Source: Methanolobus sp.
GTDB lineage: Archaea > Halobacteriota > Methanosarcinia > Methanosarcinales > Methanosarcinaceae
NCBI RefSeq assembly: GCF_016278365.1
Contig: NZ_JADQBZ010000008.1
Location: 124,001 to 188,000, forward strand
DNA length: 64,000 nucleotides
Reading direction: 5' to 3'
Below the pieces are notes generated by a model. That model saw nothing but the letters and a program-made list of their open reading frames with translations. It searched no databases and was not told the DNA's origin. Shown in pieces: positions 12,265 through 25,128 of this stretch. Every line of letters begins with the position of its first letter. Position 1 is the stretch's first letter. The translations under genes were made by a program, and so were the position numbers.

Positions 12265-14250
12265 ATGGTCAAAGAAGTATCGGTCAAAGAAATTGAAACA
12301 GCAGACACTCCCAGAATAGGGGTTTTTGTATGCGAGTGCGGCGTGAATATAGGTGGTGTTGTGAACTGCCGGGCTGTGGCGGATTATGCTTCCACATTGC
12401 CCAATGTGGCCACCTCCGTGGTCAACAAGTACGCATGTAGCGATGCAGGGCAGTCGGAGATAAAACAGGCTATAAAGGACCATGATCTTAACCGTGTTCT
12501 TGTGGCCTCATGTACGCCCAAGACACATGAACCCATCTTCAGGGCATGTGTGGAGGAAGGCGGCCTGAACCCTTACCTGTTTGAATTTGTCAACATAAGG
12601 GAACATTGCAGCTGGATTCATATGCAGGACAAGGAGAATGCCACAAAGAAGGCGAGTGAGCTGGTGCGCATGGGCATTTCCAGGGCGCGGCTCCTCGAAC
12701 CTCTCCAGTCCACCGAGGTTCCTGTCACGAACAAGGCACTTGTTATCGGAGCAGGTGTTGCAGGTATGCAGGCAGCCCTGGATATTGCCGATATGGGTTA
12801 CAAGGTCTACTTGGTTGAAAAGAATCCATCTATCGGCGGCAAAATGGCACAGCTTGACAAGACCTTTCCCACAAATGATTGCAGTATATGCATACTTGGC
12901 CCGAAGATGGTGGAAGTTTCAAGGAACAGAAATATCCAGCTTATGACCTATTCCGAAGTGGAGGAAGTGGAAGGCTACGTAGGTAACTTCAGGGCGAGGG
13001 TCAGGCACAAGTCCCGTTTTGTCGATGTCACTACCTGCACTGGCTGTGGCTCATGTGTTCAGAAATGTCCGATAGAGGTACCAGACTTTGAATTCAATGA
13101 AGGTATAGGCACCCGCAAAGCCATCTATGTACCATTCCCCCAGGCAGTACCACTCCGGGCCGTTGTGGACAGGTCAGTCTGCATAGACTGCGGTGCCTGC
13201 ATCAAAGCCTGTGAGAGCCATTCTATCAATATGGAGCAGGAGGAAACATTCTCCGATCTGGAAGTAGGTGTGATAGTCGTAACCACCGGATACGATATAT
13301 ATGACCCGGAGCCAACAAATGACTTCGGGTATGGGATATATGATAATGTTATCACCGGGATGGAGCTTGAGCGCCTGCTCAACGCCAGCGGACCTACAAT
13401 GGGCAAGCTGGTGAGGCCCAGTGACGTCAGGCCTCCAAAGCGCGTAGGCTTTATCCAGTGCGTAGGCAGCAGGGACAAGAAGCGTAACAGGTATTGTTCC
13501 GGATTCTGTTGCATGTATGCATTGAAGGACGCCCAGCTTATAAAAGAAAAATATCCTGATTCTGAAGTATATATCATGTACATGGATATCCGGGCACCTT
13601 TCAGGAACTATGAAGAGTTCTATGACCGGGCCAGGGACATGGGTATCAAGTTCATCCGCGGAAAGCCCGGGAAGGTGAGCAAGGATACGGATAACAGTGT
13701 CATTGTCCGCGTTGAGGACACGCTGACGAACAATATTTACAATCTTGAGCTCGACCTGCTCGTGCTCAGTGTGGGAGCCGTGGCAAGTGAAAGTTCTGAG
13801 CGTGTCAGGCAGTTGCTTAAGGTTAGCAGGGCAGCCGACGGATTTATGATGGAAGCACATCCCAAGCTAAAACCCGTTGACACAACACTTGACGGTATAT
13901 TCATAGGCGGTGTGACCCAGGGACCTAAGGACATACCTTACTCAGTATCCCAGGGAAGTGCCTGTGCCGCCCGTGCAACGCGATATCTTGCCCAGGGTAA
14001 GGCAACCACTGAAGGCATCACTGTGGAAGTTGATGAGGATATCTGCGTCGGGTGCGGAATATGTGTGCCTATGTGTCCCTTCCAGGCGTTGTCGCTCGCA
14101 GATGGAAAATTGGCAATAATCAAGGCACTTTGCAAGGGGTGCGGAACCTGCGCCGTGGCATGCCCCACGGGAGCGCTGCAGCAGAGCCATTTCAAGAACC
14201 AGCAGCTGCTTGCCCAGGTCAGGAGTGTTTTCACATTTGAGGGAGAATAA
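12265..14250 (+). CDS. hdrA: Heterodisulfide reductase subunit A, flavin-containing
   Basis: This 661-residue HdrA is the flavin-bifurcating core of soluble Hdr complexes. An N-terminal HdrA domain with CECG and CTPKTHEP is followed by the FAD Rossmann motif [12 protein letters not shown] (about residues 158-169), the conserved cysteine loop [12 protein letters not shown], and four ferredoxin motifs: [36 protein letters not shown] and [12 protein letters not shown]. Unlike the second HdrA in this window (22774-25128), it has no fused MvhD domain; MvhD is the next gene, 2 bases away. GGAG at about 12252-12256 precedes the ATG. With hdrCB upstream and F420-type subunits downstream it likely forms a complete bifurcating or confurcating complex. 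Confidence 0.95.
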
Positions 14251-14252
14251 AA

Positions 14253-14681
14253 ATGGCAGAAACTGAATGGGAACCAAAGATAGTGGCTTTCTGCTGCAAC
14301 TGGTGCAGCTACGGAGGCGCGGATACGGCAGGCATGGGAAGGTTCCAGCAACCCTCTTCCCTGAGGATCATCAGGGTGATGTGTTCGGGACGTATTGACC
14401 CGATGCATGTTTTCAATGCTTTTCTTGAAGGAGCTGATGCCGTACTTGTGACCGGGTGTCACCTTGGAGACTGCCACTATGTTAACGGCAACTACAAAGC
14501 CCAGGTCAGATACCAGTTCCTCGAAGAGATGGTCAGGGAGCTTGGACTTGAGCCTGAAAGACTCCAGCTCAACTGGATAAGCGCCAGTGAAGGAGAAAAG
14601 TTCGCGAATTTCATAAGGGATGTCACTGCGCAGATAAAGCAACTGGGCCCGAGCCCTCTGAAGCCTGAAGGAGTGAACTAG
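14253..14681 (+). CDS. mvhD: MvhD/FlpD-type [2Fe-2S] electron transfer subunit
   Basis: This 142-residue protein is of the MvhD family, which bridges a hydrogenase, formate dehydrogenase or F420H2 oxidase module to HdrA through a [2Fe-2S] cluster. The cluster cysteines appear as [12 protein letters not shown] (residues 13-24), VMCSGRID near residue 44 and GCHLGDCHY near residues 70-78. It sits 2 bases after hdrA and its stop is directly followed by the fdhB-like start, so it is in the middle of a tight operon. Its place implies that the downstream subunits feed or drain electrons at HdrA. Confidence 0.92.
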
Positions 14682-15833
14682 ATGGTTGAAATTGGAGACA
14701 AACTGCTTGGCTATGCTACTAACCCGGATGTCCGCAACAGGGGCGCATCAGGAGGACTTGTCACTGCCGTACTGGCTGCAGCTCTTGAAAAAGGAATGGT
14801 TGAGGGCGTGGTCGTGCTAAAACGTATAGATGAATATGAAGCGATCCCGGTTATCACAGATGATGTACAGGAGGTACTTGCTTCCGGAGGCAGTATGCAT
14901 GCAGTGCCCGTGAACCTGGCTAAGTATGCAGTTGGCAGGAAGATAGCCATGCCCGGCAAACCCTGTGATGTCAGGGGTGTCATCGAACAGGCTAAACGCA
15001 ACGGAGTTGAACTCGAGGATACCTATATAGTGGGACTCAACTGCGGAGGAGCTATGCATCCGGTGGTCACCAGGGAGATGCTCATCAGGATGTATGAGAT
15101 AGATCCGGAAGATGTGGTTGGTGAGGAGATCGAGAAGGGCAAGCTCATTTTCAAAACAAAGGATGGAGAAGAGAAGGCCATATCCATTGATGAGCTCGAG
15201 GAAGCCGGATACGGAAGACGTGAGAACTGCCGCTACTGTACAATTAAGATACCAACGAATGCCGATCTGGCATGTGGTAACTGGGGTGTGATCGGGGAGC
15301 TGGCCGGAAGTGCCACCTTCTGCGAAGTAATGAACGAGAAGGGCAAGCGCCTTCTTGATAATGCTATTGAGGCCGGGTTTATTGAGGTGCAGCCTGCTGA
15401 TGAAAAATCCATAGCTATCCGGGAAAAGGTTAACAAAACTATGCTTAAGCTCGGAGATGAATGGAAAGGAAGGCTCCTTACTGAGATCCCTGACCAGGAG
15501 CGTCTTGCTTACTATATAGAGCAGTTCGCAGACTGTATCGATTGTGGCGCCTGCAGGGAAGTCTGTCCTGTATGCACGTGCGGTGAAGACTCAAAGTGCA
15601 CCATGTTCCACAGTCTCGCGGATAATTATAAGATGAGCATGTACCACATGGTGCGCCTTCTCCATTTATCTGACAGCTGTATCGGATGTGGACAGTGTTC
15701 TGATATCTGTCCAGTAGATATTCCTGTCACAACTATCTTCAGGCGCTTTGCAGACCCTGCCCAGAAGAAGCGGGATTATTCGCCTGGCATGGATCTCCAG
15801 AGACCGCCCTTCCTGGAGTTGATGTTGAAATGA
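14682..15833 (+). CDS. F420-binding FrhB/FdhB-family subunit
   Basis: This 383-residue protein combines an F420-reducing hydrogenase/formate dehydrogenase beta-type domain with two C-terminal ferredoxin motifs. The N-terminal part has [14 protein letters not shown] (about residues 19-32) and the FAD/F420 region with [11 protein letters not shown] near residue 89 and NCGGAMHP near residue 122. The central cysteines NCRYCTIK and DLACGNWGV are typical of FdhB. The C-terminal motifs are [12 protein letters not shown] and [12 protein letters not shown]. It probably oxidises F420H2 or reduces F420 through FAD and exchanges electrons with MvhD-HdrA. It overlaps the fdhA-like gene by 4 bases. Confidence 0.88.
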
Positions 15834-17290
15834 AGGAAACTATCTACCAGACTGTGTGCCCCGGCTGTGGCATTGGCTGCGGCCTCTACATCAGGGAAAA
15901 TGGTAATGGCTCCGTAAGCATCGACTTTTTGAAGAGTAGCCCGGTGAACCTGGGAAAACTCTGCAGATTCGGAATGAAGCTGCCTCATTACTACTCCGAC
16001 CCTTCCTCAGGCAAAGTTGAAGGCTTGGTATCCGGCGCTGAAGAAGCTGTCAAGGCAGCGGCTTCAAGGCTTAAGAATGCCGGGAAAATTGCCATGCTCT
16101 CTGCAGGCAACACTACCTGCGAAGAGCACATAGCATTCACAAGGATAGCAGAGACCCTGGGTACTGTGGTACACACCGGCATTCCGGTCTACCCGGAACT
16201 TCCTTCAGAGTGCCACCCCCATCTCGAAGGCATGCCATTGGCTGAAATAGAGAATGCGGAGAAGATTGTACTATTCATAGATCCCTATGTGCAATATCCA
16301 CTGCTTGTCAGGAGACTGCTGATTGCCAGGCGAAACGGTGCACACATCATATCAGCAGGCACAAAAGAACTGCATCTTGCGCATGAGAACAGGGACCTCT
16401 CACCGGAACAGTACGCAGGACTGGAACTTGACAGTAACTCGGTCATTATTGCTGATGTGCATCCGCACACAGATTCCTGTCATACGAAGCAGCTGCTCAA
16501 CCTTGCACTTGAGACCGGAGCAAGGATACACTTTATGAAACCTTTCATAAACAGCGAAGGCGCCAACAGGCTCGCAAGGGACAAGACCGGAATGATGGGT
16601 ATCTCACATATCATGGATGAGATTGAAAAAGGGGACATCAAGACCCTCTTCCTGCTTGATAGCGACCCTATTGAGCTGATGCCGGATTCTGACAGGACAG
16701 CAAATGCGCTGAGTAAACTTGACAATCTTATCGTGATAAGCTCAAGGGACAGCCCCGTCACTGAAATTGCAAATGTGGTGATAGCCACTGAATCTCTATA
16801 TCGCAAAAGAGGCACCTTCATCAACGCCGAAGGGAAACTCCGGGAGAACAGCGGGCAGGAGGTTACCGGCATAGATGCAATGTCCCTGCTGAGCAGAGAA
16901 CTGGGGTCAGAAGGCTTTGAGTACAGGCAGCTGCACGGACATCTGCATGAAAAGATGATAGAGACCCTGGCTAATGAGAACAGGAAGCCTGAGTATGGAA
17001 TAATGGAATGTGCCCCTGTACAGCACAATGGTGCCTGCACATTGAAATACCTGTTTAATCCCTTCATGTGGGCCAACCAGCCAGATGATAATGATTTCGT
17101 GCTCCTTAACATGAATATGGTCAGGAGTCTGAAACTCAGGAAAGGTGGCATGGTCAGGTTGGATTCAGAGAAAGGAAGCATGAAAATGCGGTATCGTGTG
17201 GAAAGGGTACCTGATGGCATGATTCTGACTGCCAGGAAACTGCAGGTAGCAACAGGAACGAACACAACTGTCAAAGTGGAGGGATGCTGA
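15830..17290 (+). CDS. Short formate dehydrogenase alpha-like molybdopterin oxidoreductase, probably without catalytic Cys/Sec
   Basis: This 486-residue member of the molybdopterin oxidoreductase superfamily starts with the N-terminal Fe-S domain CPGCGIGCGL (residues 10-19) and KLCRFG near residue 46, continues through a Rossmann-type core, and ends in a molybdopterin dinucleotide-binding-like barrel. True FdhA proteins are close to 680-700 residues and have a Cys or Sec in a short motif like ARLCHSP after the second domain begins; here that region reads TVVHTGIPVYPELPSE and contains no Cys. It is therefore about 200 residues short and may not bind or use Mo/W catalytically. It could be a structural or electron-wiring subunit, as NuoG is in complex I. 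It overlaps both neighbours. Confidence 0.75.
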   Translation: MKETIYQTVCPGCGIGCGLYIRENGNGSVSIDFLKSSPVNLGKLCRFGMKLPHYYSDPSSGKVEGLVSGAEEAVKAAASRLKNAGKIAMLSAGNTTCEEHIAFTRIAETLGTVVHTGIPVYPELPSECHPHLEGMPLAEIENAEKIVLFIDPYVQYPLLVRRLLIARRNGAHIISAGTKELHLAHENRDLSPEQYAGLELDSNSVIIADVHPHTDSCHTKQLLNLALETGARIHFMKPFINSEGANRLARDKTGMMGISHIMDEIEKGDIKTLFLLDSDPIELMPDSDRTANALSKLDNLIVISSRDSPVTEIANVVIATESLYRKRGTFINAEGKLRENSGQEVTGIDAMSLLSRELGSEGFEYRQLHGHLHEKMIETLANENRKPEYGIMECAPVQHNGACTLKYLFNPFMWANQPDDNDFVLLNMNMVRSLKLRKGGMVRLDSEKGSMKMRYRVERVPDGMILTARKLQVATGTNTTVKVEGC

Positions 17291-17553: not shown

Positions 17554-17563
17554 CATATATATC
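17554..17563 (+). promoter_or_regulatory. TATA box of the rhodanese-EgtD operon, implying a leaderless start
   Basis: CATATATATC is centred about 26 bases before the ATG at 17584, with no Shine-Dalgarno sequence between them (the bases before the ATG are CTCTTTTCT). That is the spacing at which an archaeal TATA box would start transcription at the ATG itself, so the first gene is probably translated from a leaderless mRNA. A further TATATATATAAT run lies near 17490. Confidence 0.55.
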
Positions 17564-17583: not shown

Positions 17584-18846
17584 ATGGGGGAAATTACGAC
17601 TGAAGAGTTATCTATGAATTTAGATAAATATAAATTAATTGATATAAGGTCCGTTGATGCTTATAACGGATGGAAAGAGGGCGGGGAAAAAAAAGGCGGA
17701 CACATCAAAGGTGCGAAATCACTACCTTATAAATGGTCACACTATATTGACTGGATAGAAATTGTCAGAAATAAAAAGATCCTGCCGGAAGACCCTCTGC
17801 TTATTTATGGTTATGACAGGGACAAGACAGAGGAAGTTGCAAAGCAGTTTGAAAAGGTAGGATACTCTGATGTGACTGTTTTCAACTCATTTTTAGACTG
17901 GGCGGGAAAGGACCTGCCCATGGAACATCTTGAAAGGTACAGGCAACTGATCTCAGCCGACTGGCTTAACCAGCTGATCACAACAAACAATGCTCCTGAA
18001 TATGACAATAATAAATTTGTGTTGTGTCACGCTCACTACAGGAATCCTTCGGATTATGATGAAGGTCACATTCCGGGTGCAATATCAATCGACACGAATT
18101 CCCTTGAGTCACCGGAGACCTGGAACCGCCGCTCGTCCGAAGAACTGAAAGAAGCACTGGAAAGTGCAGGAATATCACATGATACGACGGTTATCGTTTA
18201 CGGAAGGTTCTCCTATCCGAAGAACGAGGATCCTTTTCCGGGAAGCAGCGCAGGTCATCTGGGTGCAATGCGATGTGCGTTCATTATGCTCTATGCAGGC
18301 GTAGAGGATGTCCGCACACTTAATGGCGGTCTTCAGTCGTGGCTTGATTCGGGATATGATATAACAAAAGAGCCTGCCAGAAGCAACAGGGTATCTTTTG
18401 GTATCGGTATTCCACAGAAACCGGAGATAGCTGTCGATCTCGGGGAGGCGAAAGAGATACTTTCCTCCCCTGACAAAAACCTGGTGTGCGTCAGAAGCTG
18501 GAGAGAATATATCGGAGAGGTAAGCGGTTATAATTATATTGAGAAAAAAGGCCGGATACCGGGAGCGGTGTTCGGGGATTGTGGCTCAGACGCTTACCAT
18601 ATGGAAAACTACAGGAACCTGGACCATACCATGCGCGAATACGGAGAGGTTGTGGAAAACTGGAAGAAGGTGGGGATCACTCCTGAAAAGCGCAACGCTT
18701 TCTACTGCGGGACCGGCTGGAGAGGCAGTGAAGCCTTCTTTAACGCGTGGCTTATGGGCTGGGATAGATCCGCAGTCTATGATGGCGGATGGTTTGAGTG
18801 GAGTAACAATGATTTACCTTTTGAGACGGGTGTGCCGGAAGAATGA
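17584..18846 (+). CDS. eanB: Multi-domain rhodanese, probable EanB-type hercynine sulfurtransferase
   Basis: This 420-residue protein is made of three rhodanese-like domains (about residues 1-112, 120-258 and 285-418). Only the third has an active-site cysteine, Cys375 in YCGTGWRGSE; the corresponding loops of the first two read YGYDRDK and YGRFSYPKNED, with no Cys. The family of such proteins includes EanB of green sulfur bacteria, which in anaerobic ergothioneine synthesis puts sulfur from a cysteine persulfide or polysulfide onto hercynine. I recall Tyr353 and Cys412 as its key residues; the same 59-residue spacing back from Cys375 falls on Tyr316. The next gene encodes an EgtD-type histidine methyltransferase, overlapping by 4 bases, which is the decisive context. 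A generic thiosulfate sulfurtransferase is the alternative. Confidence 0.78.
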   Translation: MGEITTEELSMNLDKYKLIDIRSVDAYNGWKEGGEKKGGHIKGAKSLPYKWSHYIDWIEIVRNKKILPEDPLLIYGYDRDKTEEVAKQFEKVGYSDVTVFNSFLDWAGKDLPMEHLERYRQLISADWLNQLITTNNAPEYDNNKFVLCHAHYRNPSDYDEGHIPGAISIDTNSLESPETWNRRSSEELKEALESAGISHDTTVIVYGRFSYPKNEDPFPGSSAGHLGAMRCAFIMLYAGVEDVRTLNGGLQSWLDSGYDITKEPARSNRVSFGIGIPQKPEIAVDLGEAKEILSSPDKNLVCVRSWREYIGEVSGYNYIEKKGRIPGAVFGDCGSDAYHMENYRNLDHTMREYGEVVENWKKVGITPEKRNAFYCGTGWRGSEAFFNAWLMGWDRSAVYDGGWFEWSNNDLPFETGVPEE

Positions 18847-19805
18847 TCATAGAAGATTTCATGTCTGAGGTTGGAGAAACTTCGATCAGAGAAAAACTGG
18901 CAGCTTGCCTGAAGTCCAATCCTAAAACCCTTCCCTGTATGTTCTTCTACGATCAGGACGGCTCGGAACTGTTTGAGAAGATAACAAAACTTGAGGAATA
19001 TTATCCTCCGAAGATCGAGATTCCGTTGCTCAGATCAACAGCCCGGAAATTTAACGGGGAGCTTAAGGACTGCGATATCGTAGAGCTTGGTAGCGGGGAT
19101 TGTTCGAAGATTTCCGTGTTCCTTGATGAGGTTCCTGAAGAATCACGTCAGACCATAGTGTATTACCCAGTTGACGTTTCCAGAGAGGCTATAGAGAAAT
19201 CCGGCCGCATTCTCCGGAAGAAATATCCTGAAATGGGACTTCATGGAATCAATGCTGATTTTCTTGAGCATATTGAAAATATCCGGGGGAAAAGAAAGAG
19301 GCTCTTCTGTTTCTTCGGGAGCACGATAGGTAATCTGACTGAAGCAAAAGCCATGGAGTTTCTTAAAAACCTGAACAGTGTAATGAATAAAAAAGACAGG
19401 CTTCTTCTTGGAATGGATATGGTGAAGGATATCGATGTGATCGAGAGAGCCTACAATGACAGTCAGGGAATCACTGCCAGATTCAATAAGAATATACTGA
19501 AGGTCACAAATAGCCATCTCGGAACGGATTTCAATCCTGATGATTTCGAGCATGTCGCTTTCTTCAATAAAGAATATTCCCGGATCGAGATGCACCTGAG
19601 AGCGAAAAGGGATCTGGAAGTAACAAGTGCTCTGCTGAAAGAGAGTGTAATCTTAAAAAAAGGCGAGACAATCCATACGGAAAACTCGCATAAATATACT
19701 CCAGGCCATATAAGGAAAATGGCAGATGCTGCAGGGCTTTTTCTGGAGAATATATATACGGATGAGAAAAAGTGGTTCTCTATTGCTGAAATGGTGAAAA
19801 GATGA
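18843..19805 (+). CDS. eanA: EgtD/EanA-family histidine N-alpha-trimethyltransferase
   Basis: This 320-residue protein is an SAM-dependent methyltransferase of the EgtD family, which trimethylates the alpha-amino group of histidine to give hercynine. Visible signatures are FYDQDGSELFEKIT (about residues 35-48) and EEYYPPKIE, the SAM loop ELGSGDCSK (residues 81-89), PVDVS with Asp111, and FFGSTIGNL with Asn164, which lines up with the histidine-binding Asn166 I recall for mycobacterial EgtD. Length fits the family. It overlaps the rhodanese before it and the cysteine desulfurase after it by 4 bases each. No EgtB-type oxygen-dependent sulfoxide synthase is present, as expected for an anaerobe. 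Methylation of another amino acid cannot be excluded. Confidence 0.88.
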   Translation: MIIEDFMSEVGETSIREKLAACLKSNPKTLPCMFFYDQDGSELFEKITKLEEYYPPKIEIPLLRSTARKFNGELKDCDIVELGSGDCSKISVFLDEVPEESRQTIVYYPVDVSREAIEKSGRILRKKYPEMGLHGINADFLEHIENIRGKRKRLFCFFGSTIGNLTEAKAMEFLKNLNSVMNKKDRLLLGMDMVKDIDVIERAYNDSQGITARFNKNILKVTNSHLGTDFNPDDFEHVAFFNKEYSRIEMHLRAKRDLEVTSALLKESVILKKGETIHTENSHKYTPGHIRKMADAAGLFLENIYTDEKKWFSIAEMVKR

Positions 19806-20983
19806 CAGATTTCAAGAAAGATTTCCCGATACTTGAAAAAGAGATATATGGAAAAAAACTGGTTTACCTTGATAACGCGGCAACGAGCCAGAAACCAGGC
19901 TGTGTGATTGATATTATCTCTGAGTTCTACAGGTCGGATAACAGCAATATACATCGTGGAGCACATTACCTTAGTGAGGTCTCAAGTGAAAAGTATGAGA
20001 AAGCAAGGGAAAAGGTCAGTGACTTCATAGGCGCCCGTGACCCGGCGGAAGTGACATTCACTGCCGGGGCAACCGATTCAATCAACCAGGTTGCATGCTC
20101 GCTTGAACCGATCCTGAAGGGAAACGAGGTTCTGATTACTGGTGTTGAGCACCACTCAAATATCGTACCATGGCAGCTTGCAGGAGCAAAACTCAGGTCA
20201 ATCCCGATGGATGATGATTGTAATTTGCTGACGGATTCCATAGAGATCACGGATAAAACGAAACTGATAGCCATATCCCACGCCTCGAACGTCCTTGGTT
20301 CCGTTAATCCGATCAAAGAGATAACCAGGATAGCAAAAGAACACGATATCCCGGTCCTCGTGGATGCGGCCCAGTCGATACAGCATCTGCCAATTGATGT
20401 GAAGGATATAGATTGTGATTTCCTGGCATTCTCAGGCCATAAGATGTATGCAGCAACCGGAGTTGGCGTGCTCTACACAAGTGAGCGTTTCAGCGATATC
20501 GTGCCAGCAAGAGGCGGAGGAGGCATGGTTGACAAAGTAACCCTTGAAAGAACCACCTACCTGAATCCTCCTTTAAGGTACGAGGCAGGCACGCCTCACA
20601 TCGCGGGTGCAATAAGTGTTGCTGCTGCGATTGATTACATGCAAAATATAGGCATGGATAAGATTCGAAAGCATGAGCATGATGTATATTCCTATGCAAG
20701 GGAAAAACTGCTGGAAACGGATGGTGTGAAAGTTTACGGGAACACTGAGAATATGTGCGGTTCCATCTCCTTCAATCTTGACAATATCCATCAGTACGAC
20801 ACAGGAATGATACTGGATAAGATGGGGATCGCTGTCAGGACAGGACATCACTGCGCCCAGCCGTTGATGAGATCCCTCGGAACTGAAGGCACCGTGCGTG
20901 CAAGTTTTGCATTGTACAATACTAAAGAAGATGCCGACATGCTGATTGAAGGCATCGAAAAAGTAAGGATGATGTATACATGA
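19802..20983 (+). CDS. sufS: Cysteine desulfurase, SufS/CsdA type
   Basis: This 393-residue PLP enzyme removes sulfur from cysteine and carries it as a persulfide. The family signatures are LDNAATSQKP at residues 23-32, VEHHSN near 115-120, the PLP lysine Lys214 in SGHKMYAATG, and the catalytic Cys351 in RTGHHCAQP, the short-loop arrangement of group II (SufS-like) enzymes that depend on a SufE partner. A SufE gene follows with a 4-base overlap. No sufBCD scaffold genes are near, so in this operon the sulfur is more likely delivered to the rhodanese protein than to Fe-S assembly; that is inference from context. Confidence 0.93.
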   Translation: MTDFKKDFPILEKEIYGKKLVYLDNAATSQKPGCVIDIISEFYRSDNSNIHRGAHYLSEVSSEKYEKAREKVSDFIGARDPAEVTFTAGATDSINQVACSLEPILKGNEVLITGVEHHSNIVPWQLAGAKLRSIPMDDDCNLLTDSIEITDKTKLIAISHASNVLGSVNPIKEITRIAKEHDIPVLVDAAQSIQHLPIDVKDIDCDFLAFSGHKMYAATGVGVLYTSERFSDIVPARGGGGMVDKVTLERTTYLNPPLRYEAGTPHIAGAISVAAAIDYMQNIGMDKIRKHEHDVYSYAREKLLETDGVKVYGNTENMCGSISFNLDNIHQYDTGMILDKMGIAVRTGHHCAQPLMRSLGTEGTVRASFALYNTKEDADMLIEGIEKVRMMYT

Positions 20984-21387
20984 GGGATGCTGTCCAGGAC
21001 GAGATCATAAAACGATTCGATGGCCTTGAATGGCTTGATAGATACAGTCTTCTTATATCCTTTGCCAAAGAGCTTAAGCCCATGGATGATAAGTTCAAGA
21101 CCGAAGAGAACTCGATCAGCGGATGCCAGTCCAGGGTATGGATCAGGACTTATAGAGAGGACGGTAAAATGATCATCGATCTCGATAGTGATGCCATGAT
21201 CACCAGGGGTATCATTTCTATTCTACTAAAGGTTGTGAACAACCGCTCCCCTCAGGACATTCTAAACCTCGACCTGTACTTTATCGAAAAGATTGGCTTG
21301 AAGTCGAATTTGTCTCCTGCAAGGGCTGATGGGCTGGCGTCGATCATCAGGAGGATAAGGGAAGTGGCTGAGAGGGGGATAAATTGA
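20980..21387 (+). CDS. sufE: SufE-family sulfur acceptor
   Basis: This 135-residue SufE-like protein has its acceptor cysteine at Cys49 in ENSISGCQSRVW, the family's signature. SufE takes the persulfide from SufS and hands it to a downstream acceptor. It is the last gene of the four-gene set, joined to sufS by ATGA overlap. The downstream genes are convergent on the other strand 85 bases away. In archaea SufE is uncommon compared with SufBC, which makes its tight linkage to EanB- and EanA-type genes notable. Confidence 0.9.
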   Translation: MRDAVQDEIIKRFDGLEWLDRYSLLISFAKELKPMDDKFKTEENSISGCQSRVWIRTYREDGKMIIDLDSDAMITRGIISILLKVVNNRSPQDILNLDLYFIEKIGLKSNLSPARADGLASIIRRIREVAERGIN

Positions 21388-21472: not shown

Positions 21473-22777
21473 TTATTCTTTTTCTCCGCCGGACTCACTG
21501 GCTTTCGCTTCCACACCTTTCCGATATTTAGCATTGCTAAGCATGGAACCTGCTTTTTCCAGGCGCTTTCTGGCAGCTTCCAGATGGGAAGGGTCAATAT
21601 CCGGCATTTCCACCTCAACATGCTCACGGGGAAGCTCTTTCTCAACTTCAAGGGTCCTTGAAATGTCAGGATAATTCCGTTCTCCAGTCTTTATGGAATC
21701 GACTGCATCACGCCATTGGCCGGCCCATGGAGAGTCAGGGATGGCAGTATGGGATACTTCAGAGCGAGAAACCTTCATTACATCCTTTGGACAAGCATTG
21801 ACACAGGCACCACAGTAGATGCAGTAGTCTTCTTTTATCGCAATGTTGTTTTTGCCGTCCTCCGGGACGTACCAGAGATGGGAAGGGCAGACATTGAAGC
21901 AGCCATGGCAGCCCTGAGGGTCGCACTTACTGATATTGGCATCTATAAGAGAGATCTCACCTTCAAAGGGCTTCTTAATATCGACGGCCTCATAAGGACA
22001 TACCACCTGGCACCATGTGCACCTGGTACACTTGTCATCATCCACTACCAGTCTTCCTTCGATCTTCGGGGCCTCACCACACCTTTCTCCCTTTACACGT
22101 ATTGCTTCCTCGGGACAGAGATCCTGGCAAAGTACGCAGTAATCGCATTTGTCCTCATCCACCAGCAAAAGCTCAAATGGTGACGGGTCATTGGGAGTCA
22201 GCTCTTTTTCGACGAGAAGGAAAGCATCACAGAACTGCGCGCAAAGGCCACAGAAATTGCACTTGTCCGTATCTATCTCTATCTCGCCTTCCACGTCTCC
22301 TCCTGACTTATCTTTGAGGGGCGCTATCTCTTCCTTTTTCTTAAAAGTAAACTCAACATCGATGGCATCTTCTGGACAGGCGGCCTTGCAGATTGCACAG
22401 GGAAGGCACTTGTCATTCATGCGGACATGTGCATCCAGTTCGGGGAAATTTTCATGTTCCGGAAAATCACCTTCTGAAGTAATCCTGAATGCGTCAACCG
22501 GGCAGAAGCTGGCACACATGGAGCAGAAGGTGCATTTATCCAGGTCCATCATCACCGGGGGCGCATCAAGCCCGGTAGCTATTTCTTTAATAGGCCCGAG
22601 CTCCAGTGCTTTTGTGGGGCAGAGCCCGACACATATGCCGCACCCGATACACCGTTTGTAATCGTAATCAAGGAGTTTTACGGACTTGTCAGTGATCAAT
22701 CGATATCTGAAACAGGAGCCATCTATATCCATTTCCCTGGTCACTGCCAATGACCTGTCTCCGGAGGGATCGCTCAT
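21473..22777 (-). CDS. Polyferredoxin with eight [4Fe-4S] motifs
   Basis: This encodes 434 residues from the ATG at 22777. A longer in-frame start exists upstream, but it would run 228 bases into hdrA, whereas ATG 22777 gives the usual ATGA overlap with the hdrA stop. Eight Cys-rich motifs follow in order: CIGCGICVGLCP, CTFCSMCASFCP, CLPCAICKAACP, CNFCGLCAQFCD, CDYCVLCQDLCP, CTRCTWCQVVCP, a variant CDPQGCHGCFNVCP, and CIYCGACVNACP. It is a soluble electron wire, likely between the adjacent HdrA-MvhD protein and ferredoxin-dependent partners, as with the polyferredoxin next to hdrA1 in Methanosarcina. The C-terminal about 90 residues are charged and cluster-free. Confidence 0.9.
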   Translation of the reverse strand: MSDPSGDRSLAVTREMDIDGSCFRYRLITDKSVKLLDYDYKRCIGCGICVGLCPTKALELGPIKEIATGLDAPPVMMDLDKCTFCSMCASFCPVDAFRITSEGDFPEHENFPELDAHVRMNDKCLPCAICKAACPEDAIDVEFTFKKKEEIAPLKDKSGGDVEGEIEIDTDKCNFCGLCAQFCDAFLLVEKELTPNDPSPFELLLVDEDKCDYCVLCQDLCPEEAIRVKGERCGEAPKIEGRLVVDDDKCTRCTWCQVVCPYEAVDIKKPFEGEISLIDANISKCDPQGCHGCFNVCPSHLWYVPEDGKNNIAIKEDYCIYCGACVNACPKDVMKVSRSEVSHTAIPDSPWAGQWRDAVDSIKTGERNYPDISRTLEVEKELPREHVEVEMPDIDPSHLEAARKRLEKAGSMLSNAKYRKGVEAKASESGGEKE

Positions 22778-25128
22778 TGAGGACCCTCCTGCAGTTCCGA
22801 ACCAATAGGACCTATCTTTTCCAGATATTCCACGAAACTTCGGATGGAGCCTGCAAACCTCTCGCCTTCGGCTGCGGATATCCACTCGACTCTGAGACGG
22901 CCTGAATCGATACCGATATCGCCGAGAACTTCCTGGAGTGCTTCCATCCTGTGCTTGGCATTGTAGTTCGCAAATATGTAATGGCATTCTCCCAGGCGGC
23001 ACCCGGCAACAAGCACCCCGTCGGCCCCGCGCTCGAAAGCCTCAAGCACGAAGGCAGGGTCCACACGTCCGGCACAGGCGACCCTTATAATTCTGATATT
23101 GGTTGGATACTGTATCCTTGATGTACCTGCGAGGTCCGCGCATGTGTAACTGCACCAGTTGCACAGGAATGCGATTATGAGCGGGAACTCGGACTTGATC
23201 TCCGTAGCCGCCTGTATCTGTGCAATTATCTGTTCATCGGTACTGTTGTGCATGGTTATTGCGTCTGACGGGCAGGAAGCACTGCATGCACCACAGCCCA
23301 TGCAGGATAACTCTTCCACTACAGCCTTGCGGTCAACCATGCTGATCTTGTTGAACTTACAAACATCAGCGCAGATGCCACATCCGATACACACATCGGC
23401 ATTCACATGGGCACTGAGAGGGTCAGCTTCAAGCTCACCTTTTGAGAGAAGCTGCATTACCTTGGAAGCAGCAGCACTGCCCTGTGCTATGGAAACCTGT
23501 ATCTCCTTAGGCCCGGAGGCACAGCCAGCTATGTAAATGCCCTTGACATGGGAATCAACAGGCTTCATCTTGGGATGGGCTATTGCAAAGAAGCGGTCCG
23601 GGCGCCTGGAAAGGTTGAACACCCGTGATATCCTGTCAGCATCAGGAACATTCTCCAGGCCCGTGGCAAGTACAACAAGGTCATACGGCTCTTCATGGAT
23701 CTCGCCTGCCAGAGTGTCCTCGTAACGCAGATACAATCTGCCCGTGGCATCCGGCATTATCTCTGCAACCCTGCCCCTTGTGAAGTCTATGCCCATGGAC
23801 TGGGTCCTTATATAATACTCCTCGTACATTTCTCCGGATGCGCGGATATCAATGTAATGGATGTTAATATCAATATCAGGATAGCGTTCCTTGAGTAGCT
23901 GGGCGTTCTTCATGCTGGCCATGCAGCAGACCCTGGAACAATATGGATTGCCGACCTTTTCGTCCCTTGAACCCACACACTGGATGAAGGCTACATTTTT
24001 GGGAACCTGCCCCGTGGACGGCACAACTACCTTTCCCCTGGTGGGGCCTGCAGCATTGAGCAAACGTTCTAGCTCCATGTTTGTGATCACATCTGGATAC
24101 AGGCCATAACCATATTCCTGTTTGCGTTTGGCATCAAAGAGGCTGTATCCTGTGGCAAGTACAATGGCGCCTACAGTGAACTCAAGTGTTTCCTCCTTCT
24201 GTCCGTAGTCGATAGCATCCGCAGGACATGCCTGTTTGCACAGTCCGCAGCCAACGCAGTATTTGCTATCTATATAGACTACCTGTGGCACTGCCTGGGG
24301 GATAGGCATGTTGATGGCTTTCGTTTTCCCAAGTCCGCAGTCGAAGATGTTGGATATCTCCACAGGACATACGCGCCCGCATTCATCCACGCAGCCTTTG
24401 CACTTGTTCTCATCAATATACCTTGGCCTGCGCTTTACGGTCACATTGAAATTGCCCACGGACCCTGTGACCTCGCTGACCTGTGCCATTGTGATAAGAT
24501 CGATATTCGGATGGTTGTGCACATCGGTCATCTTGGGCGCCAGCACACAGATAGAACAATCGTTTGTTGGAAATACCTCGTTGAGCAGGGCCATCTTGCC
24601 CCCGATCGTCGGCTCCTTCTCGACCATGATGACATGATAACCTGAGTCTGCAAGGGTCAGCGCAGCTTCGATGCCTGCCACCCCTCCCCCGATGACGAGA
24701 ACATCCTTTGTAACAGGAACTTTCTTCATCTGCAGCGGGTCAAGCAGTTTCAGCCTGGCGACACCCATCCTGATAAGGTCGAAGGCCTTCTGTGTGGCCA
24801 TCTGGGGTTCTTCCTGGTGCACCCATGAGCATTGCTCCCTGATGTTTGCCATCTCAAGCATGAAAGGGTTCAGCCCCGCTTTTGCAAGCACCCTCTTGAA
24901 GGTAGGCTCGTGCAGATGTGGTGAGCAAGCAGCCACAAGTATGCGGTCAAGCTTGTTCTCTCTTATGTCCTCTATTATAGCGTCCTGTCCTGAATCAGAG
25001 CACATGAACTGTATGTCCCTGACAACTGCAACATCATCTAAGCCGCTTGCTTTTTCCTGCAGGGAATTAACGTTAATAGTGTGGGCTATGTTCAGTCCGC
25101 AGTGACAGATATATACTCCGATACGCAT
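22774..25128 (-). CDS. hdrA: HdrA-MvhD fusion protein
   Basis: This 784-residue protein has an HdrA part of about 640 residues and a C-terminal MvhD domain of about 140. The HdrA part shows CHCG near residue 10, the FAD motif GGGVAGIEAALT near residue 148, NDCSICVLAPKM, and the Fe-S motifs CKGCVDECGRVCP, CVGCGLCKQACP, CIGCGICADVCK and CMGCGACSASCP. The MvhD part shows LCNWCSYTCADL, CAGRVDP and GCRLGECHY. The fusion means the [2Fe-2S] entry point is built in. The HdrA2 of Methanosarcina acetivorans, reported to work with F420H2 and ferredoxin, is fused in this way to my memory. No hdrCB is adjacent; the nearest pair is at 10.7-12.1 kb. Confidence 0.93.
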   Translation of the reverse strand: MRIGVYICHCGLNIAHTINVNSLQEKASGLDDVAVVRDIQFMCSDSGQDAIIEDIRENKLDRILVAACSPHLHEPTFKRVLAKAGLNPFMLEMANIREQCSWVHQEEPQMATQKAFDLIRMGVARLKLLDPLQMKKVPVTKDVLVIGGGVAGIEAALTLADSGYHVIMVEKEPTIGGKMALLNEVFPTNDCSICVLAPKMTDVHNHPNIDLITMAQVSEVTGSVGNFNVTVKRRPRYIDENKCKGCVDECGRVCPVEISNIFDCGLGKTKAINMPIPQAVPQVVYIDSKYCVGCGLCKQACPADAIDYGQKEETLEFTVGAIVLATGYSLFDAKRKQEYGYGLYPDVITNMELERLLNAAGPTRGKVVVPSTGQVPKNVAFIQCVGSRDEKVGNPYCSRVCCMASMKNAQLLKERYPDIDINIHYIDIRASGEMYEEYYIRTQSMGIDFTRGRVAEIMPDATGRLYLRYEDTLAGEIHEEPYDLVVLATGLENVPDADRISRVFNLSRRPDRFFAIAHPKMKPVDSHVKGIYIAGCASGPKEIQVSIAQGSAAASKVMQLLSKGELEADPLSAHVNADVCIGCGICADVCKFNKISMVDRKAVVEELSCMGCGACSASCPSDAITMHNSTDEQIIAQIQAATEIKSEFPLIIAFLCNWCSYTCADLAGTSRIQYPTNIRIIRVACAGRVDPAFVLEAFERGADGVLVAGCRLGECHYIFANYNAKHRMEALQEVLGDIGIDSGRLRVEWISAAEGERFAGSIRSFVEYLEKIGPIGSELQEGPQ

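Follow-up and report, generated by a model that had tools for sequence, protein, structure and literature searches.

A predicted oxygen-independent ergothioneine operon with its own SufS-SufE pair in Methanolobus and other anaerobes

A 64,000-nucleotide stretch of DNA from Methanolobus sp. (in the following 'the window') carries at positions 17584-21387, on the + strand, four open reading frames (ORFs) that were assigned to eanB, eanA, sufS and sufE, the genes of a predicted operon for oxygen-independent ergothioneine synthesis. Neighbouring ORFs are joined by three 4-nt overlaps, just as an initial annotation of this DNA had described. Based on sequence comparison, we consider it very probable that the operon encodes a dedicated route from cysteine to ergothioneine via SufS and SufE, whichever form the last hand-over of sulfur takes. 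Comparative genomics lends good support to the view that such a predicted EanB-dedicated SufS-SufE pair represents a new form of the anaerobic Ean pathway already described. The host genome comprises 2.87 Mb in 19 contigs, and the nearest loci are those of other Methanolobus, with EanB identities of 93-94%.

Protein families were assigned with Pfam and NCBIfam profiles and structural matches by comparison with the PDB. The profile scores upheld the earlier family calls, i.e. a three-domain rhodanese, an EgtD-type methyltransferase, SufS and SufE. In the case of EanB, three Rhodanese stretches (PF00581) were found, and the protein is 62% identical over its full length to the crystallised EanB of Chlorobium limicola (E = 4.9e-179 to 6ktv). 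In this alignment Tyr316, Cys375, Thr377 and Arg380 fall on C. limicola Tyr353, Cys412, Thr414 and Arg417, the residues reported as catalytic in that enzyme (PMC10903977, PMC9103826), and all four are invariant across 83 EanB sequences. Cys375, previously proposed as the lone catalytic cysteine, is indeed the only cysteine of the protein that lies within a rhodanese CxxGxR loop (CGTGWR). The PDB titles for C. limicola EanB list Y353F, T414A/V and C412S variants; entry 6kw0 (the Y353F variant) differs from the window EanB exactly at the Tyr316 column. By homology, the window rhodanese is EanB, a member of the ergothioneine synthase family.

Similarly, EanA matched Methyltransf_33 and scored 346.7 bits against TIGR03438 (EgtD, cut-off 290.9), in agreement with the EgtD/EanA type that had been proposed for it. 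The protein is 39% identical to mycobacterial EgtD, and equivalents of EgtD Y39, F47, Y56, G161, N166, Y206, M252, E282 and S284 are all present. Among these, Tyr39, Tyr56, Asn166, Tyr206, Glu282 and Ser284 are histidine contacts of EgtD (PMC8593015); their counterparts in EanA (Y36, Y53, N164, Y204, E280 and S282, respectively) are conserved in the EanA set. As a separate observation, the Methanosarcinaceae genera g4, g5 and g13 have a divergent protein of the Methyltransf_33 family, with scores of about 64-97 bits for intact copies, which occurs there without EanB, SufE or SufS of TIGR01979 grade. Methanosarcina acetivorans, used in a control search, also matches this divergent Methyltransf_33.

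The two sulfur-transfer proteins were assigned with similar clarity. SufS scored 512.2 bits against TIGR01979 (cut-off 475.1), its pyridoxal phosphate lysine Lys214 and its catalytic Cys351 (RTGHHC loop) are invariant in the copies compared, and its nearest solved proteins are the bacterial SufS 5vpr and then 5j8q. SufE scored 138.3 bits against PF02657 (cut-off 27), with E. coli SufE (1mzg) as the closest solved protein. Its Cys49 corresponds to Cys51 of E. coli SufE and is conserved in 28 of the 29 linked rows, the remaining row having a gap. A SufS tree comparing 18 EanB-linked, 17 housekeeping and 7 native archaeal-type copies placed all 18 linked rows on one side of a branch with support of 98/92 (ultrafast bootstrap / Shimodaira-Hasegawa-like approximate likelihood ratio test, SH-aLRT), and 24 linked SufE rows formed one clade (SH-aLRT 99). 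Two SufS residues, A217 and S272, mark every linked copy (18/18) and every Methanosarcinaceae copy (29/29). Among the housekeeping copies A217 was seen in 1/17 and S272 in 0/17, and both were absent from ten further SufS-like copies of archaea and bacteria included in the comparison. A simple SufE sequence signature was also sought among the linked copies and none was found. We infer that the EanB-linked SufS and SufE form a specialised subfamily that accompanies EanB and is separate from the iron-sulfur (Fe-S) machinery of the cell.

Important insight was gained from the distribution of the four genes. SufE above the cut-off was detected in 30 of 112 Methanosarcinaceae genomes, all 30 of which also have EanB and EanA; a TIGR01979-grade SufS is present in 29 of them, and in the remaining one (G022) sufS is split by a contig break. 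The four genes were gained or lost jointly in four genera (16/27, 7/11, 5/8 and 2/3 genomes), with a Fisher p of 6e-28 that is not corrected for kinship. The named carriers are Methanolobus, Methanococcoides, Methanohalophilus and Methanosalsum, and all four carrier genera mix carriers with genomes without an intact operon. Apparent exceptions to the co-occurrence are assembly breaks (G022, G051) or operon remnants (G018, G020). G051 has eanB only as a 46-residue piece on a separate contig, and in G072 the start of eanB stands alone at a contig end. The single-contig genome G020 holds a remnant of the EanB N-terminus (G020:C1:2109123-2109287) and G018 one of the SufE C-terminus (G018:C7:269-364), as would be expected after loss of the operon as a block.

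Beyond this family, the linkage was followed in 80 retrieved EanB loci, Methanosarcinaceae included, several of which stop at a contig edge. SufS lies beside the ean genes in 21 of these loci and SufE in 26. The order EanB-EanA-SufS-SufE is retained in 11 Methanosarcinaceae loci (some ending at a contig edge) and is also seen in Thermoplasmata, Aminicenantes, Omnitrophota, Phycisphaerae, Elusimicrobia and Fibrobacter, so that genomes with the four genes adjacent, as listed here, span Methanosarcinaceae, Thermoplasmata and at least five bacterial phyla. Because the Methanosarcinaceae keep this order, and Thermoplasmata and bacteria with identities of about 50% do so as well, the operon arrangement is not a matter of chance. 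Chitinivibrionales have EanB-SufS-SufE. Loci in which SufE comes after EanB and SufS is absent were found in Calditrichota, Gemmatimonadota, Ignavibacteriota, a Bacteroidetes metagenome-assembled genome (MAG) and an unassigned MAG (loci L014, L020, L037, L040, L042, L049 and L051). The genomes of L040 and L042 contain no Methyltransf_33 gene; their EanB may use another substrate, or the MAGs may be incomplete. In 16/16 searched genomes outside the Methanosarcinaceae, the linked SufE is the only strong SufE, one genome also showing a further, weak match. Most Bacteroidota carry EanB, in many cases together with EanA, but lack linked SufSE; in 4 of 6 Bacteroidota/Ignavibacteriota genomes whose EanB lacks linked SufSE, SufE stands beside the housekeeping SufS. 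Overall, the SufS-SufE linkage first noticed in the window is borne out by joint occurrence across Methanosarcinaceae, Thermoplasmata and bacteria and by the clades that the linked proteins form.

In the EanB tree, most Bacteroidota and C. limicola share one large branch; EanB with linked SufSE lies elsewhere in the tree, and the methanogen EanB adjoins that of Caldithrix. Since the linked SufS sits inside the bacterial SufS radiation, a transfer from bacteria to archaea would be the simpler reading. Contamination of MAGs may affect single bacterial bins and leaves the pattern as such untouched.

The sulfuration of hercynine by EanB needs sulfur at the S0 level, for which reason hydrogen sulfide is no substitute. 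A desulfurase yields such sulfur from cysteine without oxygen, and the operon would thereby free the pathway from environmental polysulfide. In the route that we propose, EanA would trimethylate histidine with S-adenosylmethionine (SAM), as its homology and conserved histidine-site residues suggest. Judging from family chemistry and conserved residues, SufS would strip the sulfur of L-cysteine as a persulfide on Cys351, which SufE would then take over on Cys49. SufE would load Cys375 of EanB with sulfane sulfur, directly or by way of a short polysulfide set free close to the EanB tunnel. Finally, EanB would place the sulfur on C2 of hercynine, with Tyr316 as acid/base. This last chemistry was shown for C. 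limicola EanB, in which the sulfane sulfur of the Cys412-persulfide goes onto C2 of trimethylhistidine (TMH), IscS supplying the enzyme in vitro and polysulfide also acting directly (PMC9103826, PMC11767532). The predicted role of SufS-SufE as persulfide suppliers, put forward in the initial annotation, is strongly supported by genomics.

Alternative explanations have to be weighed for the rhodanese, for the SufS-SufE pair and for the product. E. coli YnjE, which is annotated as a molybdopterin synthase sulfurtransferase, shares with EanB its three-domain fold, the Tyr and the complete CGTGWR loop, so that Tyr316 and Cys375 are necessary and not diagnostic. The Tyr316-Cys375 match to EanB Tyr353-Cys412, on which the assignment had first leaned, is confirmed by the alignment, but the spacing was rejected as a test for EanB since it is alike in YnjE. 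Overall identity is better evidence, together with a 15-residue insert in the second domain (PKNEDPFPGSSAGHLG, about residues 212-226) that is conserved in 27 aligned EanB relatives and corresponds to a gap in the YnjE alignment. The residues C333, Y338, N342 and Y343 are likewise conserved in the EanB set and lacking in YnjE. Moreover, identity to YnjE is 39%, the score is 598.8 bits to C. limicola EanB versus 273 to YnjE, and an AlphaFold2 model (mean predicted local distance difference test, pLDDT, 84.3; predicted template modelling score, pTM, 0.84; residues 335-350 poorly modelled) gave a TM of 0.89 to the EanB-hercynine-persulfide complex versus 0.80 to YnjE. With eanB also overlapping a histidine methyltransferase gene, it is very unlikely indeed that the window protein is no ergothioneine synthase but a general sulfurtransferase of the YnjE kind, for instance one that serves molybdopterin. 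Regarding SufS-SufE, these proteins feed SufBCD in bacteria and the host genome has a SufB/D-type protein, so the pair might serve Fe-S cluster assembly through SufBC and merely be co-transcribed with eanBA. However, SufBD is found in 106/112 Methanosarcinaceae genomes, SufE present or not, while SufE is confined to the 30 with EanB; the Fe-S scaffold consequently does not track SufE. There is no SufBCD gene at the ean locus, and the window SufE is the only one in the host genome. The host also keeps two IscS/NifS-type desulfurases beside IscU/NifU-type genes, away from the operon, and the linked SufS and SufE form clades of their own. Thus a housekeeping role is disfavoured by co-occurrence, SufBD distribution and clades, and we regard it as improbable. 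Hardly more probable is a pathway that ends at, or mainly serves, another product, namely hercynine, used as an osmolyte, or selenoneine, made by means of a selenocysteine lyase activity of SufS. The carrier genera are largely marine or halophilic and group II desulfurases can use selenocysteine; on the other hand, all tested EanB catalytic residues are retained, and an attempt at selenoneine synthesis with EanB failed (PMC9103826).

The remaining alternative is a variant of the proposed route that differs in the last step. Here, the pathway-dedicated SufS and SufE would never touch EanB; a reduced or captured SufE persulfide would give a short polysulfide (HSS-) that enters the EanB tunnel, like potassium polysulfide does in vitro. 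Polysulfide is a direct sulfur source for C. limicola EanB, whose Cys412 sits at the bottom of a tunnel of 13 A, and this tunnel was held to keep a desulfurase out (PMC9103826); in view of this argument both direct and polysulfide hand-over are possible. Direct contact between SufE and EanB is plausible because of the precedents of SufE-SseA (PMC12375888) and IscS-YnjE (PMC8931425), the M. tuberculosis SufE-SseA complex being a case in which SufE can bind a rhodanese. A specific partner is also suggested by the SufE subfamily that tracks EanB and by the loci with SufE after EanB and no SufS. Indirect supply is accordingly held to be possible though somewhat doubtful, and within the dedicated route direct transfer is ranked slightly ahead of a polysulfide relay. 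In the most far-reaching reading, the linked SufS and SufE would form a sulfur-relay subfamily of their own which loads EanB by specific protein contact, was co-transferred with eanAB and extends over Methanosarcinaceae, Thermoplasmata and at least seven bacterial phyla, so that strict anaerobes in sulfide-rich, polysulfide-poor settings would make ergothioneine from cysteine alone. For this whole chain of claims we see about even chances. Several points weigh against the proposed route as a whole. Besides the tunnel and the activity of C. limicola EanB with polysulfide, this characterised enzyme and most Bacteroidota loci belong to the branch without linked SufSE, and EanB chemistry in itself therefore does not depend on SufSE. 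The co-occurrence counts are not phylogenetically independent, and in a passage of a 2020 review ergothioneine is given as undetected in archaea (PMC7278568).

Transcription of the operon probably starts close to eanB. An AT-rich box (ATATATAT) lies 22-29 nt before the eanB ATG, and similar boxes occupy the same position in several Methanolobus and Methanococcoides orthologues. Upon inspection of the sequence, no Shine-Dalgarno was visible before this ATG. Because of this box and the lack of a visible ribosome-binding site, the sequence suggests a leaderless eanB transcript that starts at or beside the start codon.

Table. Positions of the predicted operon features in the window.
Feature	Position	Strand	Basis
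TATA box (probable), ATATATAT	17555..17562	+	-29 to -22 from eanB ATG, read from sequence
eanB, three-domain rhodanese, predicted O2-independent ergothioneine synthase, 420 aa	17584..18846	+	homology, catalytic residues, insert
eanA, predicted SAM-dependent histidine N-alpha-methyltransferase (histidine to hercynine/TMH), 320 aa	18843..19805	+	TIGR03438, conserved residues
sufS-type cysteine desulfurase, EanB-linked subfamily (predicted), 393 aa	19802..20983	+	TIGR01979, clade, A217 and S272
sufE-type sulfur acceptor, EanB-linked subfamily (predicted), 135 aa	20980..21387	+	PF02657, E. coli SufE alignment, clade

The upstream Hdr/FlpD/FrhB/molybdopterin genes were considered as further operon members and rejected: between eanB and the ORF before it lies a gap of 293 bp that has a TATA-like box of its own, and other genes lie upstream in the relatives inspected. 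These neighbours form an HdrA-FlpD-FrhB/FdhB-FdhA-like gene set at 12265-17290, including a short (486 aa) molybdopterin oxidoreductase. On the other side, a ferredoxin-rich ORF lies at 21473-23002 and a second HdrA-type ORF, with a fused FlpD-like end, at 22774-25128 on the - strand. Elsewhere, the host genome has two further SufS-like genes. One of them, a divergent desulfurase (L126:3425-4606, on contig G000:C3), adjoins YcaO-TfuA (L126:1064-3057) on the opposite strand. YcaO and TfuA make thioglycine in methyl-CoM reductase, and this desulfurase could be their sulfur donor. The other stands immediately before FdhD (L125:3351-5370, on contig G000:C6), with a ThiF-family gene near, and is placed as if it were a sulfur source for formate dehydrogenase maturation.

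Published work differs on what donates sulfur to the oxygen-independent ergothioneine synthase in nature: IscS was used in vitro, and later polysulfide was held to act as the direct source. With its conservation and apparent co-transfer, the SufS-SufE pair is a candidate physiological donor that is testable with purified proteins, and the four named carrier genera, all of them cultured, are places to seek archaeal ergothioneine. If SufE is truly specialised for one rhodanese, its role would widen past Fe-S assembly; the subfamily residues also offer a handle for annotation. No description of the EanB-linked SufS-SufE branch was found in the open-access literature searched; the original publications on EanB (Burn 2017, Leisinger 2019, Cheng 2020/2021) lay outside that search and may mention it.

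Two parts of the picture are already known: EanAB in methanogens, according to a passage of the 2020 review (PMC7278568), and, in the form of the MES fusion (PMC9516567), the coupling of a desulfurase to ergothioneine synthesis without oxygen. The initial annotation had suspected that archaeal EanAB homologues were on record, and that passage indeed describes adjacent eanA and eanB in Methanococcoides vulcani, of the same methanogen family; the desulfurase pair goes unmentioned there. Two Methanococcoides loci analysed here (L010 and L011) have all four genes. C. limicola EanA-EanB (Clim_1148/Clim_1149) are orthologous to the window proteins, with the same catalytic residues and adjacent genes. 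The window operon differs by its apparently specialised SufS-SufE pair, whereas C. limicola EanB, which has been supplied with polysulfide or E. coli IscS in assays, belongs to the branch without linked SufSE (as read from the tree, its own locus not having been inspected). MES of Caldithrix abyssi is also anaerobic and dedicates a cysteine desulfurase to trimethylhistidine sulfuration, but it is an unrelated metallopterin (molybdopterin) enzyme fused to a NifS/IscS-type desulfurase, whereas the window has a rhodanese with separate SufS and SufE, its SufS being a single-domain 393-aa protein with no metallopterin fusion. A MES-type system built on the ORF at 15830-17290 was rejected, as this molybdopterin ORF is unfused, FdhA-like and not beside eanB in the relatives inspected. 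E. coli YnjE-IscS resembles the window system in that a three-rhodanese-domain homologue with the same Tyr and Cys loop is loaded by a cysteine desulfurase (PMC8931425), and differs by its lower identity, the missing insert, its molybdopterin role and the lack of a methyltransferase partner. Finally, in the case of M. tuberculosis SseA-SufE(Rv3284), SufE is likewise encoded beside a rhodanese, which it binds and activates (PMC12375888); SseA, however, is a thiosulfate sulfurtransferase of another rhodanese family, and the pair comes without SufS and without a link to ergothioneine.

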